Virus record (IMG/VR): IMGVR_UViG_3300020392_000075
Location: 1-24,791 of that record
Reading direction: 5' to 3' (one strand)
Source: a virus
DNA: 24,791 nt
Below the pieces are notes generated by a model. The model did not search any database. It saw only the letters and a program-made list of their open reading frames with translations, and had not been told where the DNA came from. Position numbers and translations under genes: made by a program. Position 1 is the stretch's first letter. The number at the start of each line of letters is the position of its first letter. This document shows positions 1-19,026 of the stretch, piece after piece.

Positions 1-878
1 CAATTTAAAAAGTTTATAGACGATATAGTTTGAAGTACTGCTGATCTAGTATTAAAGAACATTATAGTACCAATAGAACCATTTATATAGTCTAATGCTC
101 TATTGCTTAACCTACTGCCTGAAAATAATCTATTTTTACCAGATTTCATTCTAGCTAATATATTTTCTAATGCTTCTCTATACTTAGCACCATATGCAGC
201 TTCAAGTTTATTTAAATTTTCTTGGTTAAATATTTCACTAATGTTATCTAAAAAACCTGATTGCTGTAAATATTTTTGTCTTTTAGTAGTATTAAGTAAA
301 TCTATAAGATCTGTAGTTATAGTACCAGCTAACCACTCTTGATCTGGTTTTACATAGCCATCACCTTTTGTAACAGATAATATTTGATCAGCAAAAGCTT
401 TTAATTTACCGTTAGCATTTACTATATCAACAAGTTCAGATAAGTCTGTTTTAGATAATCCAGGTATATCATGACCCATTTTATTAAACAAATAAACTCT
501 AACTGCTTGTTCGTTAGTAAAACCGCTTTCATTTGTTTTTCTAAGATCTTTTGGAACGTCTAATGATTTTTTAAGTATTCTAAAATCTTGCATCATTTGA
601 ACTCTATCTCTTGATAAATTTTCTATAGCTCTACCATATGGATCTAACAAATGTTCTTTAAACCAAGCCATTTGACTATCACCTAATTTACCTTTGCTTA
701 ATAGCGGATATAATAATCCCATAAAGTCTTCAGCTGAGTAAGGTATAAAGAATTTTTTATTACCTTTATTAGCACCTCTTACTTTTGCTTTAGCTCTTGA
801 ATATCTTTTTTCTGATGCAATGCCAGTTTTTTGCTCTATGATTTTATTTATTTCAGCACTTATAGATTTACTAAATTT
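1..878 (-). other. C-terminal helical module of the giant protein (incomplete)
   Basis: Residues 2035 to at least 2326 follow the last KFSKS motif. The segment is mostly helical and contains FFIPYSAEDF (2077-2086), the stretch LLYPLLSKGKLGDSQMAWF soon after it, TTKRQKYLQQSGF, and near the edge NGSIGTIMFF and AVLQTISSINF. It resembles the large helical regions that accompany enzymatic domains in phage polyvalent proteins, but no specific family could be fixed by eye. The reading frame is open to base 1, so the true end of the protein is outside the window. Confidence 0.45.
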
Positions 879-3800
879 AACTTTAGCTTGTTGTACTTTT
901 GATTTAACGTCTATTTGATCTAATACATCTCTAACAGCTTCAACATTACCAAATGCATCATCAGCAAAATAAAAGTCATTATAACCTTCTGCAGCTTTAC
1001 CTACAATCCAATTAGCTTTGGCAGCTCCTGTAGAATTACCTAATCCAATTATATTTTCACGCTTAAACTCTAATCCTTCAGATTTTAAAAACTCATATAT
1101 AGCATCAGCTGATTCAGGCGCGCGCGCTGTTAACACAAATAAATCTTCATTACCTCTAGCATCTCTAATCTTTTTAGCTACATTAAATAGTGGACCACGC
1201 TTACCATCTCTTACAATATTAAAGTCGCTAAAATCCATAACAGCACCTTGAGCTACTAAATCAGCTCCTTTCTCTGCAAACTCTTCAGCAGTAAGTTGAC
1301 CTTCAGTTCCATCTGTATTAGTATAAAATACTATACTTTTAGTTTGAGCTAGTGTGTCATCAAAATCAAATACTCTTATTTTTTTAACCGGGGCGTTTAA
1401 TTTTCTAGCATTAGCTAAAGCTTCATCAACTGTCTTAGCATAACCAATGACTTCATCATTTGTTACACTTTTACTAAACTTTGCTCCAGGAACACTAGAC
1501 AACTCTTTTATATTAGACTCTTTAGCTGGAATTTTAGTTTCTAATATCTTAACAGCATCTGTGTTTAACAATGAAGCCATGCTTGAAGCGTCATCTAAAG
1601 TGTATGAACTTTTAGGTATATTTCTTAATCCGCTTGGAAGTATTCTTAAGTTTACTGTAGTCATAGGTATTCCATCGCTACCAATGCTATTACTAGGCAT
1701 TACTCTCATGTTTAGATCAACATTTCCAGTTAACTCTGGAATAGGTAATCCTAAAGGATTTTTACCCATAAAAAATAATCCACTATCTTTAAGCTGTATA
1801 TAACTAGTAGGTGGAACTTTATTTTCATAAATTTCTTTTACTGGAGATATATCAAACTCAGCTTTTTGTGTTATAGCTTTTTGTAAACCTTCACCTTTAA
1901 TACCATTTGGATATTTTTCTTTTAAATAATTATACTTAGGTTTTAAATCAGCTACTTTTTTAGCTGTTAATCCTTCTCCTAGCTGTAAGTATATTTCCAT
2001 AGGAAGTTTACCTGTTCTATCGTATAGTTGTAAATCAGCACCTAATTCTCCAGCTCTTTTTCTATAAGCTCTTATAGCTTTGTAAGCTGGATTTATTAAA
2101 AGTTTTTTTATTTCTTCTTTAAAAGTATATGGCTTTCCTTGAACTTTACTGTTAAAATTAATTTTACCATTTCTATATATTAAACCAACGTCACCGTATT
2201 GAGCTTTTGCAAGTTTAACTTCTACATCAAAACTGTTTCCAAATATTAAAGCTGCAAAATCAGGTATACCAACTTTGTTGCCACCTGCTTGATCTGAAAC
2301 TTTAAATCCTTTTATTTTTAACTTTTTTAATCTTTCTATAATAACATTTTCATATGCAAATCCTCTGTTTTTGCCTATTTTTTTAAGCTCAAGTTCTATA
2401 GCTTCATCAATACTTATAGTAGGATTATTAGTTAATATTTGATTAACATTTTTCTCAAAACCTTTTCTAAGTTTATCTCCTTTTATATTTAACTCTTCTG
2501 CTTTTTTACTTGAAAGACTAAACTTAACGTTAGGTTTTCTTTGTATTTTTTCAGCAACTTTAGGCTTTGTTTCTTTAGTTACTTCTCTACCTTGTATTTC
2601 TTGTACTTCAGTAAATCTTTCAAACACTTTAGGATCTTCAAGTACTTCTAACGTAGCATCTTTACCTAGTTCTTTAGCTATTGTTTGTGCTAGCTGAGTT
2701 TGTTTAGATGCTGGTCTACCTTTTTTAGGTGCTAAATGAAACTCTACAAATTCTTCTTGATTATAAGGTTTTTTAGTAAATAAACTAGGTCCAGCAGTTC
2801 TAGGTGTATCACTTGGTAGTAATCCATCACTAATAGCTTTATCTACTTCAGTTGGTGATAAATTCTTTTTTTCTTCAATAATAAAATCTTGATATGATTT
2901 ATTTAAAATATCTTGTGGTATCAAATCATATATTTGTTCACCATACTTTTGCAAAAATGTTTTGTATTTATCGCTACTAGGTTTACCCATCAACTCTTTG
3001 ACGTCATTAGTCAATTCAGTAGCATAAGTATCTTGCAATGTCTTTTTAAACTTAGGATCAGTTACTTCAGGTATTCTAGTTCCAAATGTTTTAGCAACAA
3101 CATCTTTTACTTTGTTGTATAAGTCACTGCCTTCCTTAATATCTAAAGCTCTTCTTAAGTTGGTAGGTGGTTTTGGCTTTTCAGTTATTTCAACTTCTTC
3201 AACTTCTGTAGTAGGCTCTGCTATGTCAACTCTTTCCGCTATATCACCTTCAAATACTTCACCTAATACTCTTTTAGATGCTTCAATAGCTCTTGATGGT
3301 AAAAACTTATTTATATAAGCAGCAAGTGGAACGTCTGATTCAGGATCATAAGCTTGTATTAAATCTAATATACCACGCTCACCTGTTTCTATTTCATCGG
3401 TAAGTAATTGTCTATCAAAACCTGGAGCTTCGCTTCTGCGTTGTACTATTTTATTTACAATAGGTTTAAACTCTTGTATTATATCTAGTGCACCAGCAGT
3501 GCCTTGATTAGTATATATTTCTTGAACCTTATCAGACGCTGTTTTAGACATTTTAATTATATCGTCTTCTTCTTCTGGCTCAGCTAATCTTACTCCTTCT
3601 TGTATATTTGATTGATAATTCTTAATAAAATTAAATACATCATTAGCATCTTTTAAATCAAACATCCAGCTTGAATCTCCAAATATATCTTTAGATATGC
3701 CATTTATAAAGTTCTTTAATGATGGCATAGTTTCAATATCATTTAAGTCAATCAAGCCTAAAGCAACAGCATTATTCATTTGAGCCATTATCTCTTCAGC

Positions 3801-6800
3801 ATCAGCAGTAGCTTGGCCTCTTCTACCTGATTTTAATATTACTTTACCTCTACCACCTGTTTTATAAAGGTTAAACCTAGCAATTAAATCGTTATAATCT
3901 TTTTCTTTTATTTTACCAAGTTCAAATTTATTTCTTAAAACTTCAATAGCTTCATCTACAGCTTTAGTAGCTTCTTCGCTTAACATACCGTTTTTATCTA
4001 CTATGTTTTTAGCCTTGTTTTGTATATGGAATAATTCTTCTAAAGGTGCAGCAGCAGCGTAACCTGCTAAGCTCACATCTCCAGACATAGCTATTTCTCC
4101 ATCAACTACTCTTTCATTTATAATTATATTATTACCTACGGCAGCTGCATTGTTTCCACTTTCAATAACAGTCTCTACTTGTGCTAGTTCTTCTTTGCTT
4201 AAATCAGTTAAATCATTTCTCCAATTAGCATTATCAGTATCTACAACTATAAACTTACCATCTTTAGGCATAAGCGTCATAGCTACATTTTTATAAAAGT
4301 CATACAAACCGTAGTAATATTCAGCATTTAAGTTTATAAAACTTTCACCTAGTTTTTGTCTAGTTTCTTTTATTTTATTTCTATCTTCTTTCGCTCTTTT
4401 GCTAAGTAAATCTTCTCTTTTTCTATTTAAATTATTATATTGTTCTTCAAGTTTTTCTTTAGCTTTTTTACCAGCTTCAGATAAATCTCCTGTAGCTCCA
4501 AGTTTAGTTGCTTGACCTTGAACTTGTCTCATTTGTCTAGATAAATCAGCTGCTTCAACTATTTCTTCAGTAGTCATTGCATTTAACTTATTTAAAGTCA
4601 TGCCATCAGCAAAAGCTAATTCTGTAAGAAGTTCTCTTCTTCTTTTTCTCAATTGATCTCTTTCAGGACCTGCTTCTAAAGCACTAAACTGCTCTTGAAG
4701 TTGTATTAACTCTAAAACTTTTTCTTCATTTTGTTCTATTTCTTTGCGTATTGTAAACTCGTTTTTAATCATATTACGAGTATTACCCATAGTTTTAGGT
4801 GCCATTATAGCTAAAGAAGTAACAGCAGTATTAGCAAAAAATTCTTTATCTAAACCTTCTATCATAGATTTATTTTCACCTAATACAGATATATCTATAA
4901 TGTTATGTGCTATTTGAGTTAATGTTTCTTCAGCTTCTTCTATAGTTATAGCTCTACCAGCGTTTCTACTTATGCCAGATATAGCGTTTTTAGAAACATT
5001 AGCTGCAAAATTAAGTGGTGATTTATACGCTTCTGCTTTAAACTCTTGTTTACCTATGTTTCTAGCAAGACTACCAGCGTCATTTATTATTTTTAATGAA
5101 CCAAATGTTTCAGCTAAAGCTGCTGTACCACCATAAGCATAAGATGAAAAAGCTTTTTGAGCAAAACTATAATTAGATATTCTTTCTAAATCATCGTACT
5201 CTTGTTGCAATTGTTTCTTTTTATCTAAATCAGATTCTAAATCTATTTGCTTTTTTAATTTAGGTAAAGACTCTAGTGCGTTAGCTTGTTGTAACTCTAT
5301 ATCTCCGTATCTACCACCTGATTCACCAACAAAGAATATAGCTTGAGCTGTTCTTGTACCATAAGTTGCTAATTCACGAGCTTTTTGTCTAGCTATTTTT
5401 TTACCAGCTTCAGTAGCTCCTTTTATTAACATACCTCCTTTTAAAGCTGCGCCACCAGGTACAAATGTAGTAACAATAGATGGAGAGTTATTAGCTAGTG
5501 ATTCACCAAACCAATCAAAGAAATTTACATTTTCATTTTCAATATCATCTAAAGTTATATTATCTGGTATAGTAGTAGCTCTTTTTTCAGCTAATTTAGA
5601 ATTATAATCTCTTGTGGTTTTAGTTAAGAACTCTAAATAATTGTCTATAGAGTTTATTATTTTAGTATTAGAATCATCTACTAAAAATCTACCAGCTTTT
5701 AATAATAGTTGATTAGTTAAAGATCCAAGATTAAAAGTACCACCAATAAAAAACTCCTCTAATGCCATACTTGTTCTGGCGCTCAAGCTGTAGTCTAAAC
5801 TTAGCTGTTTTTCTATTATGCCTTTAGTCTCTACATCTCTTGATTTATTTATTAATGACTGTATTTGCTGGTCATATAATTTTTGTTGTTTAAGTAAATT
5901 ATCATAAACATTATCTAAACCTTTTACATTAAAATCATTTTGTATTTTTTCAGCTTCAGCTATTAAAGTTTGATACTCTTTTATTTGAGAACTACTACCA
6001 TCATTTATATTACCACTAGGTATAGTTTTTTCAATATCATTTACTTTCTTTATAACTTCATTAATAGCATCTTGATATGGCTTTGCTTGCTCTTGATATT
6101 TATCAAAATCACTTTTTAATATTTTACCACTTTCTTTTATAAACTCTGTAGCACGATCTAAACCTTTTTGTGCGTCTTCTAATGATTTATATGGCTTATC
6201 GTCTCCAAATGGAGCCATTAGCTCTCTAATGTCTTCAGGAACATTTCTTAAAAAAAGTTGAGTTTCTTTTCTATATATTTCGTTTAAACTTTGATTTTTA
6301 ACAGCTTGTATTTCTGCTTGATTTTGAATACTAATAGGTGTTAACTCGCCTGTTTGCTCGTAATTTTCATATTGCTTGAACTTTTCAGGTCCTAAATACT
6401 CTTCTATAGGTTGATATACTTTACCAACTCTTTTAGTACCACCGCCAGAAAAAGCTTCTGCTTCTTCTTTTGTTAAAAAACCTTGTAGTAAACCTTCTTT
6501 TTTATATTGAGCATAGCTTATATTTTCATAAAAATCAGGCTCAACATTTTCATCTGTAACTATTGAAACAGGTCTTTGATCTAGCTTAAAATAATTTTTA
6601 GCAGTTTCTTCTGTTATTTTTTCTTCAGGAGTTTCTTTTAATGTAGTTTCTAAGTTGTTAAATATCTCGTCAGCTTCTAACTTTTTTCTTTTTTCTTTAT
6701 TTTCTTTACTACTATATTCCTCAAAAGCTTCTCTCTCTTCCATTAAAAAAATACCTCTATCCCACCTTTTATTTCTAGCAATAATTTCATCTGGTGTTTT

Positions 6801-6980
6801 AGTAGATTCTTTTTCTTCTACTTCTATAATGTCGTCACTATTTATTATTTCTTCTTCTTTAGAGTCTATTTTATCTTCTCCAATAAGTTGTTCAAAAGTA
6901 AAAGCATCGTCAATAGAAGCTTCTTTATTACTAGTTTGATTAACTAAATCTTCAAATGTAAATTCGTTATTTTCTATCAT
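1..6980 (-). CDS. Giant multidomain (polyvalent-type) virion protein, C-terminus beyond left edge
   Basis: A single open frame runs from an ATG at 6980-6978 to the left edge without a stop, giving at least 2326 residues. The start overlaps the stop of the upstream gene as ATGA, so translation is probably coupled. Visible order: twin FTFE(D/Q)L(V/I) motifs (residues 7-13, 27-33); acidic, helical stretch (about 40-450); Gly/Ala-rich weakly hydrophobic part (about 488-730); coiled-coil-like charged helices (about 740-900); zincin-like segment (about 948-1070, EELFH at 981-985); long linker; PD-(D/E)XK nuclease-like domain (E1544, PD 1573-1574, E1587-x-K1589); HAD-like domain (D1872, D1874, T1951, K1988, D2007, D2008); helical C-terminal module from about 2035. 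Position after two helical proteins resembles the T7 gp14-gp15-gp16 ejection set. No lysozyme or transglycosylase motif was recognised. A role as ejected cargo acting in the new host is inference; the multi-enzyme make-up fits phage polyvalent proteins. Confidence 0.9.
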   Translation of the reverse strand, partial: MIENNEFTFEDLVNQTSNKEASIDDAFTFEQLIGEDKIDSKEEEIINSDDIIEVEEKESTKTPDEIIARNKRWDRGIFLMEEREAFEEYSSKENKEKRKKLEADEIFNNLETTLKETPEEKITEETAKNYFKLDQRPVSIVTDENVEPDFYENISYAQYKKEGLLQGFLTKEEAEAFSGGGTKRVGKVYQPIEEYLGPEKFKQYENYEQTGELTPISIQNQAEIQAVKNQSLNEIYRKETQLFLRNVPEDIRELMAPFGDDKPYKSLEDAQKGLDRATEFIKESGKILKSDFDKYQEQAKPYQDAINEVIKKVNDIEKTIPSGNINDGSSSQIKEYQTLIAEAEKIQNDFNVKGLDNVYDNLLKQQKLYDQQIQSLINKSRDVETKGIIEKQLSLDYSLSARTSMALEEFFIGGTFNLGSLTNQLLLKAGRFLVDDSNTKIINSIDNYLEFLTKTTRDYNSKLAEKRATTIPDNITLDDIENENVNFFDWFGESLANNSPSIVTTFVPGGAALKGGMLIKGATEAGKKIARQKARELATYGTRTAQAIFFVGESGGRYGDIELQQANALESLPKLKKQIDLESDLDKKKQLQQEYDDLERISNYSFAQKAFSSYAYGGTAALAETFGSLKIINDAGSLARNIGKQEFKAEAYKSPLNFAANVSKNAISGISRNAGRAITIEEAEETLTQIAHNIIDISVLGENKSMIEGLDKEFFANTAVTSLAIMAPKTMGNTRNMIKNEFTIRKEIEQNEEKVLELIQLQEQFSALEAGPERDQLRKRRRELLTELAFADGMTLNKLNAMTTEEIVEAADLSRQMRQVQGQATKLGATGDLSEAGKKAKEKLEEQYNNLNRKREDLLSKRAKEDRNKIKETRQKLGESFINLNAEYYYGLYDFYKNVAMTLMPKDGKFIVVDTDNANWRNDLTDLSKEELAQVETVIESGNNAAAVGNNIIINERVVDGEIAMSGDVSLAGYAAAAPLEELFHIQNKAKNIVDKNGMLSEEATKAVDEAIEVLRNKFELGKIKEKDYNDLIARFNLYKTGGRGKVILKSGRRGQATADAEEIMAQMNNAVALGLIDLNDIETMPSLKNFINGISKDIFGDSSWMFDLKDANDVFNFIKNYQSNIQEGVRLAEPEEEDDIIKMSKTASDKVQEIYTNQGTAGALDIIQEFKPIVNKIVQRRSEAPGFDRQLLTDEIETGERGILDLIQAYDPESDVPLAAYINKFLPSRAIEASKRVLGEVFEGDIAERVDIAEPTTEVEEVEITEKPKPPTNLRRALDIKEGSDLYNKVKDVVAKTFGTRIPEVTDPKFKKTLQDTYATELTNDVKELMGKPSSDKYKTFLQKYGEQIYDLIPQDILNKSYQDFIIEEKKNLSPTEVDKAISDGLLPSDTPRTAGPSLFTKKPYNQEEFVEFHLAPKKGRPASKQTQLAQTIAKELGKDATLEVLEDPKVFERFTEVQEIQGREVTKETKPKVAEKIQRKPNVKFSLSSKKAEELNIKGDKLRKGFEKNVNQILTNNPTISIDEAIELELKKIGKNRGFAYENVIIERLKKLKIKGFKVSDQAGGNKVGIPDFAALIFGNSFDVEVKLAKAQYGDVGLIYRNGKINFNSKVQGKPYTFKEEIKKLLINPAYKAIRAYRKRAGELGADLQLYDRTGKLPMEIYLQLGEGLTAKKVADLKPKYNYLKEKYPNGIKGEGLQKAITQKAEFDISPVKEIYENKVPPTSYIQLKDSGLFFMGKNPLGLPIPELTGNVDLNMRVMPSNSIGSDGIPMTTVNLRILPSGLRNIPKSSYTLDDASSMASLLNTDAVKILETKIPAKESNIKELSSVPGAKFSKSVTNDEVIGYAKTVDEALANARKLNAPVKKIRVFDFDDTLAQTKSIVFYTNTDGTEGQLTAEEFAEKGADLVAQGAVMDFSDFNIVRDGKRGPLFNVAKKIRDARGNEDLFVLTARAPESADAIYEFLKSEGLEFKRENIIGLGNSTGAAKANWIVGKAAEGYNDFYFADDAFGNVEAVRDVLDQIDVKSKVQQAKVKFSKSISAEINKIIEQKTGIASEKRYSRAKAKVRGANKGNKKFFIPYSAEDFMGLLYPLLSKGKLGDSQMAWFKEHLLDPYGRAIENLSRDRVQMMQDFRILKKSLDVPKDLRKTNESGFTNEQAVRVYLFNKMGHDIPGLSKTDLSELVDIVNANGKLKAFADQILSVTKGDGYVKPDQEWLAGTITTDLIDLLNTTKRQKYLQQSGFLDNISEIFNQENLNKLEAAYGAKYREALENILARMKSGKNRLFSGSRLSNRALDYINGSIGTIMFFNTRSAVLQTISSINFLN
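891..1385 (-). other. HAD-superfamily phosphatase-like domain within the giant protein
   Basis: This is residues about 1866-2030 of the giant protein. All four HAD motifs are present: motif I RVFDFDDTLA (nucleophile D1872, acid/base D1874), motif II FVLTARAPES (T1951), motif III GAAKANW (K1988) and motif IV YFADDAFGNV (D2007, D2008). Spacing is normal for a small HAD fold with a modest cap. The complete set predicts Mg-dependent phosphatase or nucleotidase activity. The substrate is unknown: a nucleotide, a DNA 3'-phosphate or an alarmone-like molecule are all conceivable. KFSKS directly follows the domain at residue 2035. Confidence 0.82.
2061..2378 (-). other. PD-(D/E)XK nuclease-like domain within the giant protein
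   Basis: This is residues about 1535-1640 of the giant protein. The signature elements are in order: a helix with an acidic residue (FAYENV, E1544), then a strand with GIPDFA (P1573, D1574), then FDVEVKL (E1587, K1589), giving P-D-x12-E-x-K, followed by AQYGDVG and a basic helical region. This matches the alpha-beta-beta-beta-alpha core of restriction-like and Holliday-junction-resolvase-like nucleases. The following region, with SGLFFMG and NPLGLPIPE around residues 1733-1748, may be the domain's C-terminal half. The domain is flanked by KFSLS at 1486 and KFSKS at 1834. The DNA substrate cannot be predicted. It could act on the host chromosome or on incoming phage DNA. Confidence 0.65.
3771..4139 (-). 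other. Zincin metallopeptidase-like segment with altered HExxH (EELFH)
   Basis: This is residues about 948-1070 of the giant protein. A beta-strand-like stretch, GNNIIINE (949-956), is followed after 24 residues by a helix containing PLEELFHIQN, and about 77 residues later by an acidic helix, EEIMAQ (1062-1067). This strand, HExxH helix, distal Glu order is how zincin domains of phage polyvalent proteins look. Here the first His of HExxH is Glu (E981), with E982 and H985 kept. The domain may be an inactivated or atypical peptidase, or the likeness may be accidental. No second helix-borne His ligand is obvious. Confidence 0.35.
5301..5519 (-). other. Gly/Ala-rich, weakly hydrophobic region of the giant protein
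   Basis: Residues about 488-560 include NSPSIVTTFVPGGAALKGG and later AIFFVGESGG. Similar Gly/Ala-rich hydrophobic pieces recur near residues 590-610 and 715-730. None is long enough for a confident transmembrane helix. In ejected phage proteins such regions may be partly unfolded for passage through the portal or may contact membranes; that is inference. Confidence 0.35.
6882..6962 (-). repeat. Tandem N-terminal short motif FTFE(D/Q)L(V/I) in the giant protein
   Basis: Residues 7-13 read FTFEDLV and residues 27-33 read FTFEQLI, exactly 20 residues apart, within the first 35 residues and separated by a polar, probably disordered linker. The codons differ (TTTACATTTGAAGATTTAGTT versus a divergent second copy), so the conservation is at protein level. 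A duplicated short linear motif at the extreme N-terminus could be a docking or packaging signal that tethers the protein inside the capsid; that role is inference. Confidence 0.7.
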
Positions 6981-8614
6981 GGGTTATAAAATGAGTACTT
7001 ACCGTTTTGATTTACTATGTAATTTTTACCATTATATCTAAATGTAGAACCTGGCGATAATGATTTTATTGCACTAGCATTGTTGGAATAATCTTTAAAT
7101 CCTAAATTAGGATCTGCTTGTTCTAATATTGGATCTGGTTGCATAAATTGTTCTGAACCCGCTTGTAATAAATCATCATTTAAAGATTCTATACCAGATT
7201 CATTAAACTTATACTCTACACTTTGAGTTCTTTGATCTTCATCTAAATAAGTTGGTTTAATAACAAAATCTCCATCATCATCTATACCTAATGTAAAATC
7301 AGTTATTTGGTATTTCTTACCACCTATATCTATATTTTTATTTAAGTACTCATCAAAAGTACTAGTTATAGGATCTGTAAGCTCTTTCCAAGATTCATTT
7401 GTTTCAATAATAGCATCAACTATTTCTTTATCACCTTCTGCTTTTTCCAAACTTCTATCATAAAATTCTTTAATAAGTTCTTTTTTAGTTTTACCGCTTT
7501 TTAATTTTTTGTTTTCAAACTCATCAACAGCAATTTTAGATTCAATAAATGGTAGTCTAGTTTTTAGTTTTTGTTTTTTGTCTTTTGCTAATTGTAATTT
7601 TTCTCTTTGTAAAGCTAAACTTTTTCTTTGATATTCATTCATAGGTTTTTCAACTTCTTCAGTGTATTTAGTTATGAATTTATCTTCTGGAAATTGTCTA
7701 TCTATCATGTATTTAATTAAAGCTTCTTTTGCAGCAGCTTTTTGCATGTCATCACCTGTCCACGCATCCATGTTGTCAGAATCTTTACCTAAGCCATAAC
7801 TAGTGAATAATTGATATGTTGACTCATTAACTAAAGCACCTAGATTAGGACTTTCTCTTAATCTTTTTTCAAATATTTCTTTAGCTCTTTCAAAATTTTT
7901 AGTCTCTTCAGTACTAAGAGTTCTACCATTTTTTATTTTTTCTATAACTTCTGTAGAAACCAAACTCTGTAAACCAACGGCGTTTTGTTTTATAGTTTCG
8001 TCTATTTCTTTGCTATAATCACCTGCATAGTTAACTAAATCAAAACCATCTTTTTTAGCCTTAACAAATGCGGTGCCATTGAACACGTCCTTACCGTTTA
8101 ACTGTGCTATAATATTTCCATTTTTAACTCTAAATGAAATATTTTTACCACCAGAACTAGCGTCTTGAACAAATTTATAATAATCTTCATTATTACTTCT
8201 TAGCAATTGTTTAGTAAAATTTCCAGTATTTTGAGTTTCTTTTAATTTTTGTCCTTCGTCATTTATTGCAGCCATTAACGCGGGCACATTGCCTATTATT
8301 TTTTCTATTTCGCTTTTCTTTTTATTGTACGCAGATCTATCACCTTCAAATGTCTGTATATCTAACTTATAAAGCTCGTCTAGCTCATCACTTATTTGAC
8401 TTTGCAGTAAGTTTAAAGCATCCATATCTTCCATAGTCTCTGTTTCGTTTAGACTATCTTGAAGTTCTTGATTTCTTATACTTGCTGCATTTTCAAAGTC
8501 TTCAACAGTTTTAAACCTATCAGCAATACCTTTTCTAGCTTTACCAATACCTGAAATTATTTCTCCTGTTGGGTTAAAAAACGCTATACTTGTATTTGGC
8601 TTTCTATAACTCAT
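6977..8614 (-). CDS. Putative virion-internal helical protein (545 aa)
   Basis: This gene lies 10 bases after the preceding gene, and its TGA stop overlaps the ATG of the giant protein gene (ATGA). The product is soluble, charged and mostly helical, with acidic N-terminal helices (about 40-100) and a basic coiled-coil-like stretch (about 330-360, QREKLQLAKDKKQKLKTRL). A small beta-rich piece at the C-terminus contains STFRYNGKNYIVNQNGKYSF. No signal peptide, membrane helix or enzyme motif is seen. Placed between an Ala/Gln-rich small protein and a giant protein, it fits the T7 gp15 position in an internal/ejection cluster. That is a positional inference, since I see no sequence similarity to gp15. 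No Shine-Dalgarno precedes the ATG. The coupling suggests it is made in step with, and may pack together with, the giant protein. Confidence 0.85.
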   Translation of the reverse strand: MSYRKPNTSIAFFNPTGEIISGIGKARKGIADRFKTVEDFENAASIRNQELQDSLNETETMEDMDALNLLQSQISDELDELYKLDIQTFEGDRSAYNKKKSEIEKIIGNVPALMAAINDEGQKLKETQNTGNFTKQLLRSNNEDYYKFVQDASSGGKNISFRVKNGNIIAQLNGKDVFNGTAFVKAKKDGFDLVNYAGDYSKEIDETIKQNAVGLQSLVSTEVIEKIKNGRTLSTEETKNFERAKEIFEKRLRESPNLGALVNESTYQLFTSYGLGKDSDNMDAWTGDDMQKAAAKEALIKYMIDRQFPEDKFITKYTEEVEKPMNEYQRKSLALQREKLQLAKDKKQKLKTRLPFIESKIAVDEFENKKLKSGKTKKELIKEFYDRSLEKAEGDKEIVDAIIETNESWKELTDPITSTFDEYLNKNIDIGGKKYQITDFTLGIDDDGDFVIKPTYLDEDQRTQSVEYKFNESGIESLNDDLLQAGSEQFMQPDPILEQADPNLGFKDYSNNASAIKSLSPGSTFRYNGKNYIVNQNGKYSFYNP

Positions 8615-8624
8615 ATTTTATATA

Positions 8625-9398
8625 TTAATATCCTAAAGGAAGATTCGATAATGCCTGTGCAGTTTCAGCAATTACATTAGCTTGATCAACAGAAACATCA
8701 ACGCCTTGTTGCTCAGCTCCAGCTATAAACTGATCTATATTTACTACATCACTATCTCCAAATGAATCACTTGGTTTTATGAAAGGCGATATTGCGGATG
8801 TCAAACTTTCTGTTAAACCACCTACGCCTGAGCCAAATGCACCTGCTTGTCTAAGCGCTTCAATATCGGCTAAACCTTGTAATCTGTCTAACTTAGCTTC
8901 TTCTCTTTTTTCTTGCACACCCATAATATCAGCTTGACCTTTAGCTTTGTATAAATCAACTTGTAATTGACCTTGAGCTTGTAGCTTTTGATTTTTTACC
9001 TCTTGTTTTTCTATGCTTGATGCAATACCTTGTTTAGATTTTAAAGCTGCTTGAGCTAAAGCTGTAGCGCCACCAGCACCTGTTTTTCTAATAGCATCTA
9101 AAGTATTAGCTAACGCTAGATCAGTTTGTTCAGCTTTCATTTCTGCAGCTTTAGTAGCAACTTGAAGATCTCTATATGGATTTTGTACGCTAGCATAAGG
9201 ATTAACTAATCTTTGTCTACCTTTTTCTAAGTCTCTTATTTGCCTTAAATAATCTTCTTGTTTTTTCTTAGATTTATTAGCTTGATTTAGCCCTATAAGA
9301 GATGCACCAGCTTGCACAGTTGATCCAATCAAATTAGCTTTATCTTTATCACTCATACCGCTTGTTAAGTTGCTTAAAAATTCTCCTATGTCACTCAT
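8625..9398 (-). CDS. Putative small internal virion protein, Ala/Gln-rich (257 aa)
   Basis: This is the first of three consecutive internal-type genes, beginning 6 bases after the 566-residue gene. The N-terminus has a Gly/Ala amphipathic stretch, ANLIGSTVQAGASLIGLNQA (about residues 21-40). A long, charged, Ala/Gln-rich helical region follows (about 40-185, with KAAEMKAEQTDLALANTLDA and ALAQAALKSKQGIASSIEKQ), then a Gly/Ser segment (GAFGSGVGGLTESLTSAISPF) and an acidic tail. Size, composition and position match the T7 gp14-like small ejection protein, which inserts in the host outer membrane, but no sequence homology could be shown. The alternative is a chaperone or head-completion protein. 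The start ATG follows an A/T-rich leader without a Shine-Dalgarno sequence. Confidence 0.8.
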   Translation of the reverse strand: MSDIGEFLSNLTSGMSDKDKANLIGSTVQAGASLIGLNQANKSKKKQEDYLRQIRDLEKGRQRLVNPYASVQNPYRDLQVATKAAEMKAEQTDLALANTLDAIRKTGAGGATALAQAALKSKQGIASSIEKQEVKNQKLQAQGQLQVDLYKAKGQADIMGVQEKREEAKLDRLQGLADIEALRQAGAFGSGVGGLTESLTSAISPFIKPSDSFGDSDVVNIDQFIAGAEQQGVDVSVDQANVIAETAQALSNLPLGY

Positions 9399-9404
9399 AA
9401 TATT

Positions 9405-11105
9405 TTATCTTGATGATACTACAAATTCTGTTGATACAGCAAATAACTCTTTAATGCCACCTGTATTAGTAGTTGCATCTGTGGAGACTTTTACTGTAGT
9501 AAAAAATCCTTTTATACCTGTTGTTTCATTACCAAATAAAACTTCACCAGGTCTTGCTGAACTATCGTTTACTAAGTTAGCAAAATATTTATTTTCTTTT
9601 CTATTAAAACCTACCCTATACTCAACACCGCTTTCTATATAAATTCCTTCACTGTAGCTTTTTATCGGTTTAGATTTATCATTATACTGATTATAACTAG
9701 AGTTTTGCAAATCAAAACCTTCTTCGTCTGAAACAAATGAATCAACTTCCCAACCATTTGTTCCTTCGTAGTTTATAGTTTTAAATACTTTTTGTATAGA
9801 TGGATTAGAATTAAATATAAACGTTATATTTGACTCAGATGTAACACCATAAAATTCATTTCTATTTTGATTAGAGTAATGTTCGTAAACTTCAGAAGAA
9901 GTCATAGTATAATACTTGTTTTTTAAACTAGCTAAAAAATTAGGTTTATAAGTAAAAAAACTAACCCAACCATTTATATCTTCTTCAAAAGTAACTGTAT
10001 AATAAGATGAATCTTCATTGTTAAAGTTTTCATCTTTTTGAAGTGATACAGTGTAATTAGAATTATAATTATCCCAACCACCAATTACTTTATCTTTTAT
10101 ATATTTTGTAAATATAATCGCGTCAGGTGTAGCAACTGGCGAACCAGGATTGCTATTTAAATATATAGTATTTGTATCGTACAACCCAACAACGCTAGTT
10201 GTTATAGTAGGCGCACCACCCGTTTGTGGTATTTGAACAACCATACCTTTTTCTATAGAAGACATGTTTGAGCCTGATACAACTATTTTAAATGGATTTA
10301 CACCTACACTAACAAATGTAGCTGTTACATTAGTAGGTATAAATAAGTCGTTTATTTCTTCTAATTTATCCCTAAAAAAGTCAGACATACCATAGCCAGA
10401 TATTTCTGTAAGACCATCACTAGATAATCTCATTACTTTACCTCTATACTTGTCTACAAAATATCTTCTAGTGCCAAATACTGCAAAACTTTCTGGATTT
10501 TTGCTTATTCCGTATTCACCTACGTAAGGAGTTACTTGACCTATAACTAAATTAGTTGATGTAACAGTTCCTGATCCTTCAGCAGAAAAAATAGCATCTT
10601 TATCTATTAAACCTCTACTTACTTTGTTTTCTTGGAATATAGCTAAATTACTATCTAAAGCATGTAGCTTCTGTATAGACCCATAATTAGGATCAACTGC
10701 TTTAGTAATTTCTTCACCAACTGAAAAAACATTTGTTTGATTTAAATCAGTTCTAGAATTAAAAACACCTGAATATATTAAAGCATTAGATCTTCTCTCT
10801 TGCGTGCTAGAATCTTCCTTTAAATAAGCCCTAACACCGTATCCAGTTTCAGCCTCGTTAAAACCACCTCTAAATCTAGACTCTTCAACTATCCAGTTTC
10901 TAGAAAGCTGTCTGCTTCCAATATTAGTGCTTCTACCTGGTGGATTATTACTAGACGTTGGAAACAAAGGATAGTCGTAAGAAGCTCCTTGTGGATTCCA
11001 AGGTAAACCAGGAAAAGTAGATAAATAAGCATCAGTACCAGAAGTAGAGTTATTTATATTCTTCTTTAATACAAAAGAGTTAAAATACTTTATATTAATA
11101 GCCAT
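9405..11105 (-). CDS. Tail/connector structural protein (566 aa)
   Basis: This is a beta-rich protein of the tail part of the module. The N-terminal region has a Gly/Pro/Asn-rich stretch (FPGLPWNPQG, residues 31-40), then NWIVEESRFRGGFN (70-83). A conserved-looking core follows: YSGVFNSRTDLNQTN (111-125), SVGEEITKAVDPNYG (128-142), KVSRGLIDKDAIFSAEG (161-177) and GTRRYFVDKY, ending with GLTEISGYGMSDFFRD (231-246). The second half (about 255-566) consists of strands such as NEFYGVTSESNITFIFN, reading like repeated beta-blades. Signature stretches of this kind are, as I recall them, frequent in uncultured marine phage structural proteins without assigned function; no search was run. It follows the 1142-residue protein after a 38-base A/T-rich gap. 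A role in the nozzle, hub or fibre attachment is inferred from context. Confidence 0.82.
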   Translation of the reverse strand: MAINIKYFNSFVLKKNINNSTSGTDAYLSTFPGLPWNPQGASYDYPLFPTSSNNPPGRSTNIGSRQLSRNWIVEESRFRGGFNEAETGYGVRAYLKEDSSTQERRSNALIYSGVFNSRTDLNQTNVFSVGEEITKAVDPNYGSIQKLHALDSNLAIFQENKVSRGLIDKDAIFSAEGSGTVTSTNLVIGQVTPYVGEYGISKNPESFAVFGTRRYFVDKYRGKVMRLSSDGLTEISGYGMSDFFRDKLEEINDLFIPTNVTATFVSVGVNPFKIVVSGSNMSSIEKGMVVQIPQTGGAPTITTSVVGLYDTNTIYLNSNPGSPVATPDAIIFTKYIKDKVIGGWDNYNSNYTVSLQKDENFNNEDSSYYTVTFEEDINGWVSFFTYKPNFLASLKNKYYTMTSSEVYEHYSNQNRNEFYGVTSESNITFIFNSNPSIQKVFKTINYEGTNGWEVDSFVSDEEGFDLQNSSYNQYNDKSKPIKSYSEGIYIESGVEYRVGFNRKENKYFANLVNDSSARPGEVLFGNETTGIKGFFTTVKVSTDATTNTGGIKELFAVSTEFVVSSR

Positions 11106-11143
11106 ATTATATAATCACTTATTTATATTTTTTGTTACTTAAG

Positions 11144-14100
11144 TTATACTACACCAACTGTAAAAGTGTTTGAAAACGCTGATAAACCGAAACCACCTGC
11201 ATCTATTGCTTTTATTTTTATATTATAAGAACCTGAACTAATTGTATTTTTTGCATTTATATTAAAAAAAGATCCATTTTGAACAACTTCAAAATCATTA
11301 TTAATAGTTCCGTCTGAATTGTGAACAGTATAAAACAAATCTTCTCTATTTCTATTTATATCTGCAGATCCATTTAAAACATCACCTTCTTCTATTGCAG
11401 CTGCTAATAAAAAAGGAGGAGAAGCTCCAGGAGCTATAAGAGAATTACCAATTTGATGTCTCCAAAATGGAGCAGTATTTTGTAATCTACAGTTTGTTAT
11501 TTTTACAGGTACATTTAAGTAATCAGGTGTTTGACCTATTAAAAATATATCACTAGCTAATAAATTAAAAGTATAAGTTTCTTGAACATTAGCGTTAGAT
11601 CCAAACATAAAAGTAGAATTAGTTTGTATTCTATGTGTTCCACCACTAGAGGATATAAGGTTGAATTCACTAGTTCTATTATTTCCATTGCCATCTACTA
11701 CAGTATCTAGCGTTAGTGTATAAGGATTTGTTATATCATTTCCCGTAGAATCAACTAAAGAAAGATTATTAGTGACTAAAGTACCAGACGTATCACTTTC
11801 GTTGTGAAAGTACTCTATATCATCACCTTCTGCAGTATTATTACCGGCAGTATCTTTTACACCAGCTGGTAGTCCAGCCGCTGGAACTTCATTATTATAA
11901 TCTGATATTAAACCTGAAGTAGAACTTTCCCAATATATATCTATTACAGATTTAGTTGGAAATGTCTCAAAAACACCTAAATCTTGCCAAGCTCTCTCTA
12001 TTTTATCTTTAGCAGTTTTCATGTCAGTTACAGAAGATCCATTTACTAAACTAGCCGTGTACTCAGGTGTTGCTCCAATTTTAAAATCTGTTTCTATTGT
12101 GGCTATAAATGGATTTGATTGTGAATTAAAAAATATATCATGAAAATTTAATACATACGGATCACTAGTTGAAGTTTGCGATCCAAAGTAAGGATAAAAA
12201 GGTTGAGGTGGAACAGTAGTATCTGAGCTTCCAAATGGAAAACCATTGCCTTTAGTAGTTGTCCAAGCGCCTAAATCTTTAAAAGGTTCTATTGATATTA
12301 CTTTTTCTCCACTAGCACTTACTGTTGACTGCGTATTGTAAGAATCTGTACCGTCATATATAGGGTTAACTCTATTTAATAATTTAGTTTCACTACCAAA
12401 AGTAGTATCATTTGCATTAGATGAAGTTTTAAGTTCTCTTGGTACTTTATTTATATTATCACCAAATATATTTATCATAGATATTCTATTTGCTTGAATA
12501 AAACGTGGTAAATAATTTTGTATATCAGTAAGAATATCTTCAAAATCAAAAGAAGAACCGTTTTTTAATTGTGGCGCTACGTCCCATAGTAATTCACCGG
12601 CTAAAGCCCCAGGCACGTATACATTGTAATAATCTTGCTCTTGTTGTTTTACTACTACTCTATACGTATAGTAACCTAAAGGATTTGTTTCAGAATATAA
12701 ACCTGGATAACCTGGTTTAGAAAGTGAGCTAGGTATTTTACTTCTAACGTTAAGCTCTAATTGATTGCCAAAGAAATTATTCCAATCGCTACCGAAATTA
12801 TCATAACCAGCATATATAGTTGAATTTTTATTTTGTGTTAAGCTAGATGTAAGATCGTTCAATATGACATTAGAAGCTCTACCATATCTATCTACTAATA
12901 CTATTCCTACTTGATAACTTCTATTTTGCTTTACTGTATGTGTAGGAAACTCTATAGTAAAGTTATTATTTTGTGGTTTTTGTATATAATCTAAGTCGTA
13001 ATCTAAATTATCAGGTGAACTATGTTTGTCTAAAAAGTTACCATAAATAACTCTATTACCTACAACTTCTTGTGTTAATGCCCTAACTGGAACTTTGTCA
13101 TGAACTCTTATTAATTCAGCCTCTGGTAATGCTTTTATAGGTTTTGTAGATAAATAGTTATATTCATATTTAGTTGTTGTACCTAAAGAAGTTATTTTAG
13201 ATATATCTACATCTTCAATAACCCTAACTGCTTGCTCATCAGAGTTTTTAACAAGTATTTGTATTTCTTTAACTTTAAGTTTATCTTCAAGCTCACTGGC
13301 ATTACACGGTAATGTTAAATTTAATTTAACTTGATCAACTCTATTTTCCATAAACTTAACATCTGTAGCTTCAGATGCTACTTCTTCATCGTCGTTTATA
13401 AAATAACCAAATTGTTTTGGTACAAAAGCTGATTGAGTGAATGGAGACATTAAAGAATATTCGTTGTCGTCGTATTTAAACCTATAACTAAACTTAGCAA
13501 ACTTATCTTTTAATATATTAGTATCACCTTTGTATGATGCGTTGTAATCTGGATTTGTTCTTGATATTGTAACTATATCACCGACAGCAATTGTATTAAT
13601 GAAACCAGGTTCAATTTGAATTTCCGTATTTGGAGCATTATATCCTGGATTACCGACTATAACATGATGAGTATCTGTTTGGTTTGAAGTTATTTTAACT
13701 TGATCACCAACGATTATATCTCTATTGTCTCCACTTCTACTGTATTCACCAGATATAGCTAAAAAACTAGAATTACCAGTAGCGGGATTAGAGTTAGTTT
13801 CACTTTTAGTAACTATATGTGCAGGTAAAAACTGTTCGTGATTAGATATTAATGTACTATTATTAGAGCTATCTATAAAACTAAAAGTTTCATATGGAGC
13901 AAACTTAGCTACAGATATATGGTCTTCATTATAATAATAAGGATTAGATCCTGCAGAATCTTCGTAACTATTGTTAAATGCAAAATCAACATTTATTTTT
14001 CTAGGTTGATTTCTATCATCAGTCCAAAATAATAAATTTTCTAATATATTAACACTTATAATTGGATGTGTTTTAGAAAAATTTAAAAAGTTACCTGCTA

Positions 14101-14572
14101 CTAAAACTTTACTATTGCTATTTATAATATTGTATCTTACTATGTAACACGCAGCTCCTTTATATTTCCAAATTCTAGGTATTACAGTTGTGTCAACTGA
14201 ATCTGACGGCGCAAAATTACTTAATTGATCATTAGAAGAGTCTGTATAATCAGTTAAAAATAGATATATACAATCTCTTGATATATCCATAAAGTAACCT
14301 ATTATTTCTAATCCTGATAAAAATAATTCATTAGGTCTTACATTAGCACCGTACAAATCTAGAGCTTTTTGTATTTCTAAAGACTCTATTTTAGATTTTA
14401 AACTAGTAACTTTAGTATTACCAAGTATGTTTTCTAACGCACCAACATCAGCACCTTCAGACCTACTAACACTTATATTTTGTGCGTCTCTATATTCGCC
14501 ATTAGGTATAAGTCTAGCATCCAAGTCTTTGTTCATCTTGGATCTTAAGAAATTATTTTTTATCTCTGGCAT
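11144..14572 (-). CDS. Large tail or nozzle-like structural protein with C-terminal cadherin/Ig-like domain (1142 aa)
   Basis: The N-terminus carries the striking block NKDLDARLIPNGEYRDAQN (14-32), followed by SEGADVGALENILGN. The body is rich in strands with aromatic and Asn residues, for example LENLLFWTDDRNQPRKINVD (about 180-199), a pattern seen in beta-propeller-like phage tail proteins. Further on, KVPVRALTQEVVGNRVIYGNF and SYQVGIVLVDRYGRAS resemble blades of the same fold. The last about 100 residues (DVLNGSADINRNREDLFYTV, then SGSYNIKIKAIDAGGFG) look like a single cadherin or Ig-like domain, a common adhesin add-on in tails. The gene starts 2 bases after the upstream stop. Genome position after two connector-like genes suggests a T7 gp12-like or crAss-like muzzle role, which is inference. 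There is no signal peptide. Confidence 0.82.
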   Translation of the reverse strand: MPEIKNNFLRSKMNKDLDARLIPNGEYRDAQNISVSRSEGADVGALENILGNTKVTSLKSKIESLEIQKALDLYGANVRPNELFLSGLEIIGYFMDISRDCIYLFLTDYTDSSNDQLSNFAPSDSVDTTVIPRIWKYKGAACYIVRYNIINSNSKVLVAGNFLNFSKTHPIISVNILENLLFWTDDRNQPRKINVDFAFNNSYEDSAGSNPYYYNEDHISVAKFAPYETFSFIDSSNNSTLISNHEQFLPAHIVTKSETNSNPATGNSSFLAISGEYSRSGDNRDIIVGDQVKITSNQTDTHHVIVGNPGYNAPNTEIQIEPGFINTIAVGDIVTISRTNPDYNASYKGDTNILKDKFAKFSYRFKYDDNEYSLMSPFTQSAFVPKQFGYFINDDEEVASEATDVKFMENRVDQVKLNLTLPCNASELEDKLKVKEIQILVKNSDEQAVRVIEDVDISKITSLGTTTKYEYNYLSTKPIKALPEAELIRVHDKVPVRALTQEVVGNRVIYGNFLDKHSSPDNLDYDLDYIQKPQNNNFTIEFPTHTVKQNRSYQVGIVLVDRYGRASNVILNDLTSSLTQNKNSTIYAGYDNFGSDWNNFFGNQLELNVRSKIPSSLSKPGYPGLYSETNPLGYYTYRVVVKQQEQDYYNVYVPGALAGELLWDVAPQLKNGSSFDFEDILTDIQNYLPRFIQANRISMINIFGDNINKVPRELKTSSNANDTTFGSETKLLNRVNPIYDGTDSYNTQSTVSASGEKVISIEPFKDLGAWTTTKGNGFPFGSSDTTVPPQPFYPYFGSQTSTSDPYVLNFHDIFFNSQSNPFIATIETDFKIGATPEYTASLVNGSSVTDMKTAKDKIERAWQDLGVFETFPTKSVIDIYWESSTSGLISDYNNEVPAAGLPAGVKDTAGNNTAEGDDIEYFHNESDTSGTLVTNNLSLVDSTGNDITNPYTLTLDTVVDGNGNNRTSEFNLISSSGGTHRIQTNSTFMFGSNANVQETYTFNLLASDIFLIGQTPDYLNVPVKITNCRLQNTAPFWRHQIGNSLIAPGASPPFLLAAAIEEGDVLNGSADINRNREDLFYTVHNSDGTINNDFEVVQNGSFFNINAKNTISSGSYNIKIKAIDAGGFGLSAFSNTFTVGVV

Positions 14573-17574: not shown

Positions 17575-19026
17575 TTATACAGTTGACTTAAATAACACGA
17601 AGTTATTAGCACCTTGTACACAAAGTAATCTTTCAGATAAGAAATGGATTTGCATTGCGTCTAAACCAGTAGTAGCAGCTCCTACAGAACCTACAACCCA
17701 TGTTTTCATTCTTCGGTCATCAGCTTCAGAAGCTCTATATCTTACATGTAAGAAAGGTCTTCTAATGTTAGTACCTAATAATTGATCATACACAGTTGAT
17801 GTTCCAGCTGGAATCATTACACCGTCAATGTCTCCAATATTTCCTCTAGTTGAAAAATCATTTAGATATTTCCAATCAGTTTTATAGAAGTCATAAGAAC
17901 CTCTTCTAAAACCAGAGAATCCAAAGTTAAGCGCCATGTCTTCTTCGTTATTAAATAAACCATAAGATACAGCTCCAGTTGAAGCATACGCACCGTTCAT
18001 AGCGGCAATCATATCATCAAAATCTAAAGCAGTTCTTCTTGATAAGAATAACATGTTTTCTTCAATAGCACCTTGAGTGTCTAATTGCTTAAGGATAGTA
18101 TCAAAATCTCCTAATGCACCTGATCCAGGAGCAGCAGCACCAGCAAAATCATTATATACATTACCTCTATCTTCGATAGCAGCAAATAAACCTTCAGAAC
18201 CATCTACAGAAACACCACCGCCTCCTTTTTTCTCAGCTTCAACCATTGCCATTTCTAAGTAATCTTCAAAACGTAATCTTGTTTCAGATTCAGCTTTTAG
18301 ATACCATAAAAATCCTGATTGACCAGCTTCAGTAGCTACTTCAACCCAACCAATTTGAGCAGTATCAGATCCATTTACTTCGTAATAATCTTTAATGATT
18401 ATTGGCTTATTTGAAAACTGTGTAAAGTCAGGAGTAATAGCAGCAACTTTAGAAGTGGCTAAATTATCAGCAGCTTCCATACCTGCAGTTCCTTTTTTAA
18501 ATTCAGAACCATATACAAACACTTTGGCGTCTGTAGCGTTAAGAATATCACCTAAATTAGCTACCTTGTATGTTTCAACAGTAACTGTTGCTTTAGGTCC
18601 AGCTTGTATAGCGCTAACATCATCAACTCTAGCTTTTATTGTTTTTAAATTAGAAGAAACTATAATAGTAGCACCTTTTCTAATAGCACAGTTTTTACCA
18701 GCTTCTAAAGGAACTTCAATAGTAGTGTTTGAAGCAATAGTACAATTATTATAAGCGATGTGTAATCTATTCTGCTCAGACCAAATTACTTGATCAGACA
18801 TCATAGGCATTTCAGCGCCTACCATTCTCAAGAAACCTTGTAAAGTTCGATTTCCGTATCTTTCGATCTCTGCTTCATACAATTCTGGTAAGTATTGTTG
18901 AGCAAAAGTATCAGTGTTTCCAGTTCCAGTGCCATCGTTAAACTTTAGATAATTAGTATCTAAAGCTTGTTTTTTAGCAGCTGGAATTAAAGTTGGAGGA
19001 AAAGCTCCTCCAGTTGCAAAACTCAT
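17575..19026 (-). CDS. Major capsid protein (483 aa)
   Basis: This is the fourth gene of the head cluster, directly after the scaffold-like gene. The N-terminus is short and Gly/Pro-rich (FATGGAFPPTLIPAAKKQAL), then comes LYEAEIERYGNRTLQGFLRM (about 50-69), a long conserved-looking helical segment preceding the strands. Mid-protein Ala/Val-rich strands (KTIKARVDDVSAIQAGPKAT) match an HK97-like P-domain. A Gly-rich loop, EKKGGGGVSVDGSEG, follows. The C-terminus ends with LSERLLCVQGANNFVLFKST, as in capsid proteins of tailed phages with this gene order. Length is normal for an unfused capsid protein. No maturation-protease gene is seen nearby. The alternatives are few, and position together with sequence make this a firm call. 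Confidence 0.9.
   Translation of the reverse strand: MSFATGGAFPPTLIPAAKKQALDTNYLKFNDGTGTGNTDTFAQQYLPELYEAEIERYGNRTLQGFLRMVGAEMPMMSDQVIWSEQNRLHIAYNNCTIASNTTIEVPLEAGKNCAIRKGATIIVSSNLKTIKARVDDVSAIQAGPKATVTVETYKVANLGDILNATDAKVFVYGSEFKKGTAGMEAADNLATSKVAAITPDFTQFSNKPIIIKDYYEVNGSDTAQIGWVEVATEAGQSGFLWYLKAESETRLRFEDYLEMAMVEAEKKGGGGVSVDGSEGLFAAIEDRGNVYNDFAGAAAPGSGALGDFDTILKQLDTQGAIEENMLFLSRRTALDFDDMIAAMNGAYASTGAVSYGLFNNEEDMALNFGFSGFRRGSYDFYKTDWKYLNDFSTRGNIGDIDGVMIPAGTSTVYDQLLGTNIRRPFLHVRYRASEADDRRMKTWVVGSVGAATTGLDAMQIHFLSERLLCVQGANNFVLFKSTV

Follow-up and report, generated by a model that had tools for sequence, protein, structure and literature searches.

The 24,791-nucleotide stretch analysed here, positions 1 to 24,791 of the IMG/VR virus record IMGVR_UViG_3300020392_000075 (the window), encodes on its minus strand a giant modular protein, P0001, of at least 2326 amino acids, in which a HAD phosphatase domain with an insertion slot in its flap loop and a long helical module stand behind a patchwork of other domains. 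P0001 is probably a 'polyvalent' cargo protein that would be packed in the phage head and expelled into the host either before the DNA or together with it, for the repair of nucleic-acid ends and the capture of host transcription. The fuller proposal that an uncultured group of marine phages injects a mosaic giant, in which a sigma-like module capturing host RNA polymerase is combined with a Pnkp-type phosphatase with a swappable cap-loop enzyme slot, is put forward tentatively and as less likely than not.

Architecture and mosaic ancestry of P0001

The gene for P0001 is a single open frame of 2326 codons (minus strand, 3-6980) that starts with ATG and runs off the window edge, and its start codon overlaps the stop of the upstream gene for a 545-aa protein by 4 nt (ATGA, 6977-6980). 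Both the long frame and the translational overlap had been recognised in a preliminary description made from the sequence of this DNA, as had the helical C-terminus from residue 2035, which AlphaFold2 models as helical with good confidence. The IMG/VR record ends where the window ends and the 3' end of the gene lies beyond it, so the C-terminus has to be read from relatives. Those that are complete or nearly complete span 2331-3858 aa, the nearest over the C-terminal part, among the matches listed, being L015 (2412 aa) and L004 (2449 aa). The features of the protein are as follows, with model confidence given as the predicted local distance difference test (pLDDT).

3-6980, minus strand: giant modular protein P0001, at least 2326 aa (open frame; relatives of 2331-3858 aa)
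4701-5543, minus strand: residues 480-760, helical, Gly/Ala-rich and hydrophobic, a candidate membrane or channel part (phmmer relatives in 16 of 101 giants; putative function)
3681-4283, minus strand: residues 900-1100, zincin-like, with EELFH at 981-985 replacing HExxH and the third ligand E1063 kept (alignment; weak fold match to N4 virion RNA polymerase gp50)
3543-3554, minus strand: KMSK junction motif, residues 1143-1146 (motif count)
3252-3548, minus strand: residues 1145-1243, sigma-70 region-2-like (VIA-align, PDB sequence search, Pfam and NCBIfam matches in relatives)
2481-3197, minus strand: residues 1262-1500, conserved helical domain, pLDDT mostly >90 (model; only weak, ClpC-like matches in the PDB sequence search)
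2514-2525, minus strand: KFSL junction motif, residues 1486-1489 (motif count)
1761-2423, minus strand: residues 1520-1740, PD-(D/E)XK-like cassette with PD...VEVK at about 1573-1590 (motif; 74-78% identity to L071 and L072 only)
1470-1481, minus strand: KFSK junction motif, residues 1834-1837 (motif count)
891-1403, minus strand: residues 1860-2030, HAD phosphatase, Pnkp 3'-phosphatase-like (motifs, fold, PHROG, NCBIfam)
1301-1302, minus strand: flap-loop (C1-cap) slot between residues 1893 and 1894, empty in the window and holding a P-loop kinase or an ADP-ribosyltransferase (ART)-like domain in relatives (alignment; hairpin in the model)
867-878, minus strand: KFSK junction motif, residues 2035-2038 (motif count)
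3-875, minus strand: residues 2036-2326, conserved helical C-terminal module, longer in relatives past the window (58-90% identity in more than 80 loci; predicted all-helical)

P0001 itself has no match to a Pfam family, and tblastn with the whole protein against GenBank phages gave none. Relatives were found in IMG/VR, where P0001 itself as the query yielded 22 loci, and a profile built on the C-terminal module (the HAD and the helical part) yielded at least 568 encoding stretches, of which 80 were kept; removal of duplicates left 83 relatives, which together with the window make 84 distinct copies. The module is present in all relatives studied, and the part upstream of it is a patchwork. 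Among the matches listed, residues 1-1150 are nearest to L002 and L078, residues 1160-1520 to L015 (83-89%), residues 1520-1850 to L072 and L071 (67-78%), and residues 1850-2326 to L004, L015 and L003 (about 88-90%). Because different blocks have different nearest relatives, P0001 is, as judged by sequence comparison, a mosaic in which at least four ancestries meet at joints between domains. The window copy contains the short motif (K/R)(F/M)S(K/L/R/I) at four places, every one of them a domain joint. Across the 84 proteins the motif was seen 89 times against 42 expected, about a twofold excess, with two occurrences inside the zincin and none inside the HAD; possible explanations are cleavage by a protease, a preference in linker sequence or a scar left by recombination. 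With a HAD fold, a zincin motif family, a sigma-2-like domain and a PD-(D/E)XK motif, P0001 carries the two or more disparate domains in one polypeptide that mark a polyvalent protein.

The HAD phosphatase domain and its flap-loop slot

The domain at residues 1860-2030 has the motifs (DxDxT, T/S, K and DD) and the Rossmann-like fold of the HAD superfamily. Its residues D1872, D1874, T1951, K1988, D2007 and D2008 are the same in all 61 copies that were aligned, and an AlphaFold2 model of residues 1500-2326 places the HAD part at a pLDDT of mostly 70-88. A complete HAD domain had been placed at 1866-2030 in the preliminary description, and it is borne out by the invariance of all four motifs and by the structure search. 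An RNA polymerase reading of the DFDDT motif was rejected, since DFDDT is motif I of this complete HAD. In the structure search with VIA-align, the T4 Pnkp 3'-phosphatase (5uj0_B) ranks first, with Z 11.2 and a root-mean-square deviation (rmsd) of 2.6 over 122 of 142 residues aligned, followed by Pnkp1 in the Pnkp1/Rnl/Hen1 complex (4xru_D, Z 10.7), with other HAD proteins at 9.6 or below. The nearest structural kin of the domain are thus Pnkp phosphatases, a common fold being no proof of substrate; the link is favoured and not proven, because the top two are tied and the third lies only 1.6 Z below the first. The domain also matches PHROG 415, 'polynucleotide kinase', at 1.4e-6. Taken together, the HAD domain is real, and a Pnkp-type 3'-phosphatase is favoured as its kin on the strength of the model.

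The flap loop of this HAD is a site at which whole domains come and go. Eight of the relatives in the first set (L005, L016-L020, L022 and L023) have about 200 residues inserted exactly between window residues 1893 and 1894, and the inserted domain, which lies between HAD motif I and motif II, is a P-loop kinase with the motif GGPGSGKS, its Walker A being kept in the nested kinases. It matches AAA_33 (up to 3.9e-18), zeta toxin and the PHROG 505 polynucleotide kinase (1.1e-8), and weakly NCBIfam bacter_Pnkp and the PDB chain 4gp7, which we take to be the kinase domain of Clostridium thermocellum Pnkp. These eight relatives have a 5'-kinase domain in the same protein, as bifunctional Pnkp does. 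In two other relatives, L095 and L112, about 130 residues in the slot resemble ART-PolyVal (8e-4 and 0.04, below the Pfam cut-off). The model puts the slot between two short strands (1883-1887 and 1893-1897) that follow strand 1, presumably the flap hairpin into which C1 caps are inserted in the HAD superfamily. The state of the slot, kinase and ART taken together, changes at least seven times on a tree built from 79 C-terminal sequences; whole domains have therefore been repeatedly gained or lost at one site.

The sigma-like, zincin-like and nuclease-like domains

A sigma-70 region-2-like domain, absent from the domains listed in the preliminary description, occupies residues 1145-1243. When a model of residues 881-1520 is searched with VIA-align, the first 38 rows are all sigma factors and all cover this segment, the best being 6xl5_F (Z 7.8) and RpoS regions 1.2-2 (Z 7.5, 89 of 94 residues), to be read with the tool's own note that values of Z under 8 can easily arise among helical segments. 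Used by itself, Foldseek returned weak matches for each of the two models (E >0.05). A hidden Markov model of 25 relatives, compared with PDB sequences, gave sigma factors as its top four matches (E 0.017-0.43). The Pfam family Sigma70_r2 was matched by three relatives, at best at 1.4e-3 (L082), no other family being matched more than once, and NCBIfam sigma70-ECF matches L082 at 6.8e-5, the Pfam and NCBIfam matches falling on the same stretch. As to region 4, the helix-turn-helix that recognises the -35 element, the helical domain that comes next gave no sigma match in the PDB sequence search, and phage sigma factors could be aligned along some 210 columns at the price of a high rmsd. There is a good likelihood, as far as the models go, that residues 1145-1243 share a common fold with sigma region 2; that the domain contacts RNA polymerase is possible, with slightly more to be said against it than for it.

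The zincin-like domain appears gluzincin-like in the family as a whole, with HExxH and a glutamate about 78 residues past the second histidine in 43 of 46 aligned copies. The copies of the window, L002 and L078 have glutamate in place of the first histidine (EELFH) and retain E982, H985 and E1063, and the HExxH that marks the zincin of polyvalent proteins is missing from the window copy. The loss of this first zinc ligand is why the window zincin is presumed crippled, its metal binding probably lost or altered and the copy inactive or altered. The zincin previously proposed at 940-1075 is therefore real for the family and compromised in the window. Zincins with HExxH are frequent and not obligatory in polyvalent proteins, about 36% of which carry one (Iyer et al., PMC5512222). 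The sole zincin-bearing structural match, a weak one, is region 2142-2363 of N4 gp50 (VIA-align, Z 4.5), which overlaps the kind of metallopeptidase (MPTase) region described for N4-like RNA polymerases (Iyer et al., PMC5512222). Giants in the same gene slot of other phages, without detected homology to P0001, also carry HExxH, namely crAss001 gp47 (L024), elemo gp18 (L027) and the Manatee giant (L031), so that a zincin may be general in this slot.

The block that holds the PD-(D/E)XK cassette is found in just two of 83 relatives (L071 and L072). The PD-x(n)-(D/E)xK pattern is present as IPDF...VEVKL, of which D, E and K are invariant in the three sequences and P is replaced by S in L071; an upstream glutamate is also invariant in all three. 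A model of the block, built from these three sequences only, reaches a pLDDT of 20-40. Of the nuclease earlier assigned to 1530-1760, the motif and its conservation in two relatives hold, but Pfam and NCBIfam are silent on the block; the nuclease is predicted at the level of the motif, as an optional cassette. Between the N-terminus and the zincin, the hydrophobic helical segment listed above has a hydropathy peak of 1.26 at residues 501-519, under the level of a clear transmembrane helix.

Operon context, proposed function and alternatives

P0001 is the last gene of a structural operon that runs from the terminase through the portal, a scaffold-like protein, the major capsid protein, ring proteins, a two-gene muzzle, a 257-aa protein and the 545-aa protein to the giant.

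6977-8614, minus strand: 545-aa protein in the position of phi40:1 gp100 and crAss001 C2 (synteny; ATGA overlap with P0001)
8625-9398, minus strand: 257-aa protein P0003, a relative of phi40:1 gp99, a virion protein by tandem mass spectrometry (MS/MS) (phmmer 2.1e-9)
9405-11105, minus strand: muzzle protein, C-terminal part, crAss_MUZ_C (Pfam E=8.2e-12)
11144-14572, minus strand: muzzle protein, N-terminal part (PHROG 14478, the same as the C-terminal part)
17575-19026, minus strand: major capsid protein (PHROG 13704, E=1.9e-90)
20235-22655, minus strand: portal protein (PHROG 6547)
22656-24461, minus strand: terminase large subunit, frame open to the window end (PHROG 6681; 67% to MW202828)

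The portal, major capsid, terminase and muzzle homologues stand in crass gene order, and the GenBank relatives of the capsid and terminase are Elemovirus, Callevirus, Baltivirus, a Maribacter phage and a Manatee Spring genome. The phage is accordingly placed, by gene content, among marine crass-like podoviruses related to Elemovirus, Pervagoviridae and Pachyviridae. The T7-like ejection-protein position first suggested for P0001 was given up, the operon neighbours being crass-like by their Pfam muzzle domain and PHROG families. Genes for an ATP-dependent DNA ligase and for DnaB/Toprim proteins are present in the near-complete 63-kb relative G001, and a limited Pfam scan of it at 1e-3 found neither RNA polymerase nor RNA ligase; within that scan its gene content fits DNA-end repair and use of the host RNA polymerase. 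A search with PF00940 (T7-type) over 12 relatives was silent, as were its controls, and carries no weight.

Several further observations concern the surroundings of the giant. The muzzle is split into two genes at 9405-14572 (566 and 1142 aa), both matching PHROG 14478 (1474 positions); it is one gene in Elemovirus and phi40:1 and two in the Maribacter phage Panino. In Panino the same slot holds a 1829-aa protein annotated as a tRNA methyltransferase (L026:31774-37263), beside a large tRNA array and a transfer-messenger RNA (tmRNA). The near-complete relative, of 63.4 kb (L116-L119), has GroEL and GroES in its late region, and both are also found in Elemovirus and the Manatee Spring phage. Short module-bearing contigs (L126-L132) are binned in unrelated metagenome-assembled genomes, actinobacterial, Aliivibrio, Woesearchaeota and Bacteroidetes (two being Bacteroidetes/Flavobacteriaceae), and are probably mis-binned phage contigs.

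A place in the virion is suggested by the corresponding genes of studied phages. The last-gene giants gp101 of phi40:1 and gp123 of phi18:3 (Cellulophaga) are annotated from experimental MS/MS of virions, as are most genes before them, and in crAss001 the same slot holds gp47, a 262-kDa packaged RNA polymerase-associated protein (PMC10172136). On these grounds the virion-packaged polyvalent effector of the preliminary description is kept as a multi-enzyme cargo, the best reading of P0001, but the target named for it was too specific. An attack on host DNA or on defence signalling is not favoured, because the HAD resembles a polynucleotide 3'-phosphatase, the nuclease is optional and the protease looks crippled; that resemblance makes the healing of ends likelier than the hydrolysis of a signal. 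In the proposed mechanism, a constant C-terminal part (the Pnkp-type HAD and the long helical module) is joined to an interchangeable upstream part, made up of an N-terminal helical region, the zincin, the sigma-2-like domain, another helical domain and a cassette that varies, in the window PD-(D/E)XK. The helical ends may serve packaging and ejection. The HAD would strip 3'-phosphates from nucleic-acid ends, in relatives jointly with the kinase nested in the cap loop, and breaks made by host nucleases would become sealable before phage gene expression, perhaps via a ligase. The sigma-2-like part would touch host RNA polymerase, favouring early phage transcription, and the zincin of most relatives may cut the chain at linkers, a step for which the window copy is probably inactive or altered.

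A number of results weigh against this reading, and other explanations account for some of them. The giants of the P0001 type and those of the cultured phages share a position and no detectable sequence similarity, so that the presumed virion location of P0001 rests on position. For the HAD, nothing significant came back when profiles of the C-terminal part and of the HAD were searched directly against PDB sequences, the top NCBIfam match, DNA-3'-Pase, is weak (E 0.0099), and the window copy is without a nested kinase. The substrate could instead be a small molecule or a protein, in counter-defence or host control in the manner of Legionella Lem4 and Ceg4, which are themselves structural matches (Z 9.0 and 7.6), and ART-like domains fill the slot in two relatives; this is rather unlikely, however, since Pnkp phosphatases rank first and second, the PHROG and NCBIfam labels agree with them, and the domain repeatedly nested in the HAD is a kinase of the Pnkp/zeta type. 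As to the sigma-2-like domain, the window's own segment has no sigma-family match in Pfam, hhalign aligns it with five E. coli sigma factors in the register to be expected but at a probability of 9%, the control profile A11, built on the domain that follows, likewise drew coherent weak matches to a single family, ClpC, and a strict sigma-like motif occurs in just 30 of 83 giants (chance 0.7%), about two thirds being without it. A likeness that arose by chance from the way the helices are arranged, with no binding of RNA polymerase, would explain the hhalign and control results as well as Z values of a size that helical parts commonly reach; it is unlikely, though still of some weight, because the fold match, the ranking of PDB sequences, Pfam and NCBIfam all name sigma region 2.

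Two further alternatives concern the protein as a whole. The main role of P0001 might be that of an ejection (channel) protein like T7 gp16 or crass C1, with its enzyme-like domains as non-catalytic structural remnants, for P0001 adjoins C1/C2-like proteins, has long helical and Gly/Ala-rich parts, and its zincin in the window is minus one ligand. This is quite improbable, given that the catalytic residues of the HAD, the HExxH with its third glutamate and the Walker A of the nested kinases are conserved across relatives, which points to strong selection on the active sites, and that P0001 has no strong transmembrane helix. The position of gp47, annotated as a putative RNA polymerase subunit and likewise holding HExxH, together with the hint at transcription in the sigma-2-like domain, would also suit a diverged crAss-type RNA polymerase subunit or associated protein, a counterpart of crAss001 gp47, gp49 or gp50. 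A profile of the C-terminal part, however, yields no significant match to gp47, gp49 or the part of gp50 that was compared, and the DFDDT motif is part of a complete HAD fold, so that such an origin is very improbable indeed.

The likeness of the P0001 family to known systems varies. T4 Pnkp is the nearest fold of the HAD, and relatives of P0001 have a Pnkp/zeta-type kinase in the same polypeptide; in T4 Pnkp the kinase precedes the phosphatase, whereas in these relatives it is embedded in the flap loop of the HAD, past motif I, within a giant of the virion operon. Polyvalent proteins (Iyer et al. 2017, PMC5512222) are likewise very large and unite several unrelated kinds of enzyme domain in a single chain, with a zincin as a hub domain, a proposed injection with proteolytic processing, and the ART-PolyVal type in common; the main text of that paper contains no mention of a polynucleotide kinase, a sigma factor, crAss or a HAD domain. 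In crAss001, the gene order after the muzzle is the same, with the giant last, and the cargo proteins gp45, gp46 and gp47 are packaged in the capsid and thought to be ejected before the DNA (PMC10172136), but the P0001 giant has no sequence match to gp45-gp50, and crAss001 packages RNA polymerase-associated proteins, whereas the 63-kb relative of the P0001 group has no RNA polymerase by Pfam. The giants gp101 of phi40:1 and gp123 of phi18:3 (Callevirus, Baltivirus) and gp18 of Elemovirus are syntenic as the last gene of the structural operon; they span 1691-3694 aa, and neither homology to P0001 nor a HAD motif could be detected in them. The N4 virion RNA polymerase gp50 is also a giant multi-domain protein with a zincin, the weak fold match noted above, and is injected, as P0001 may be; unlike it, P0001 has no detected polymerase domain of the N4 type and carries a sigma-like module instead. 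In the open-access literature, subscription journals lying outside the search, no account turned up of a P0001-type protein, of a HAD cap with a kinase inside it or of a sigma factor delivered by a virion.

The P0001 family appears to belong with the known polyvalent virion proteins, as a variant of them. Its C-terminal module is encoded on at least 568 IMG/VR contigs, yet no GenBank phage record matched in the protein search. A HAD cap loop that takes up a kinase or an ADP-ribosyltransferase-like domain represents a naturally evolved plug-in site inside an enzyme. If P0001 is injected, it would show how podoviruses without a virion RNA polymerase of their own could prepare the host, repairing ends and steering the host RNA polymerase before gene expression.

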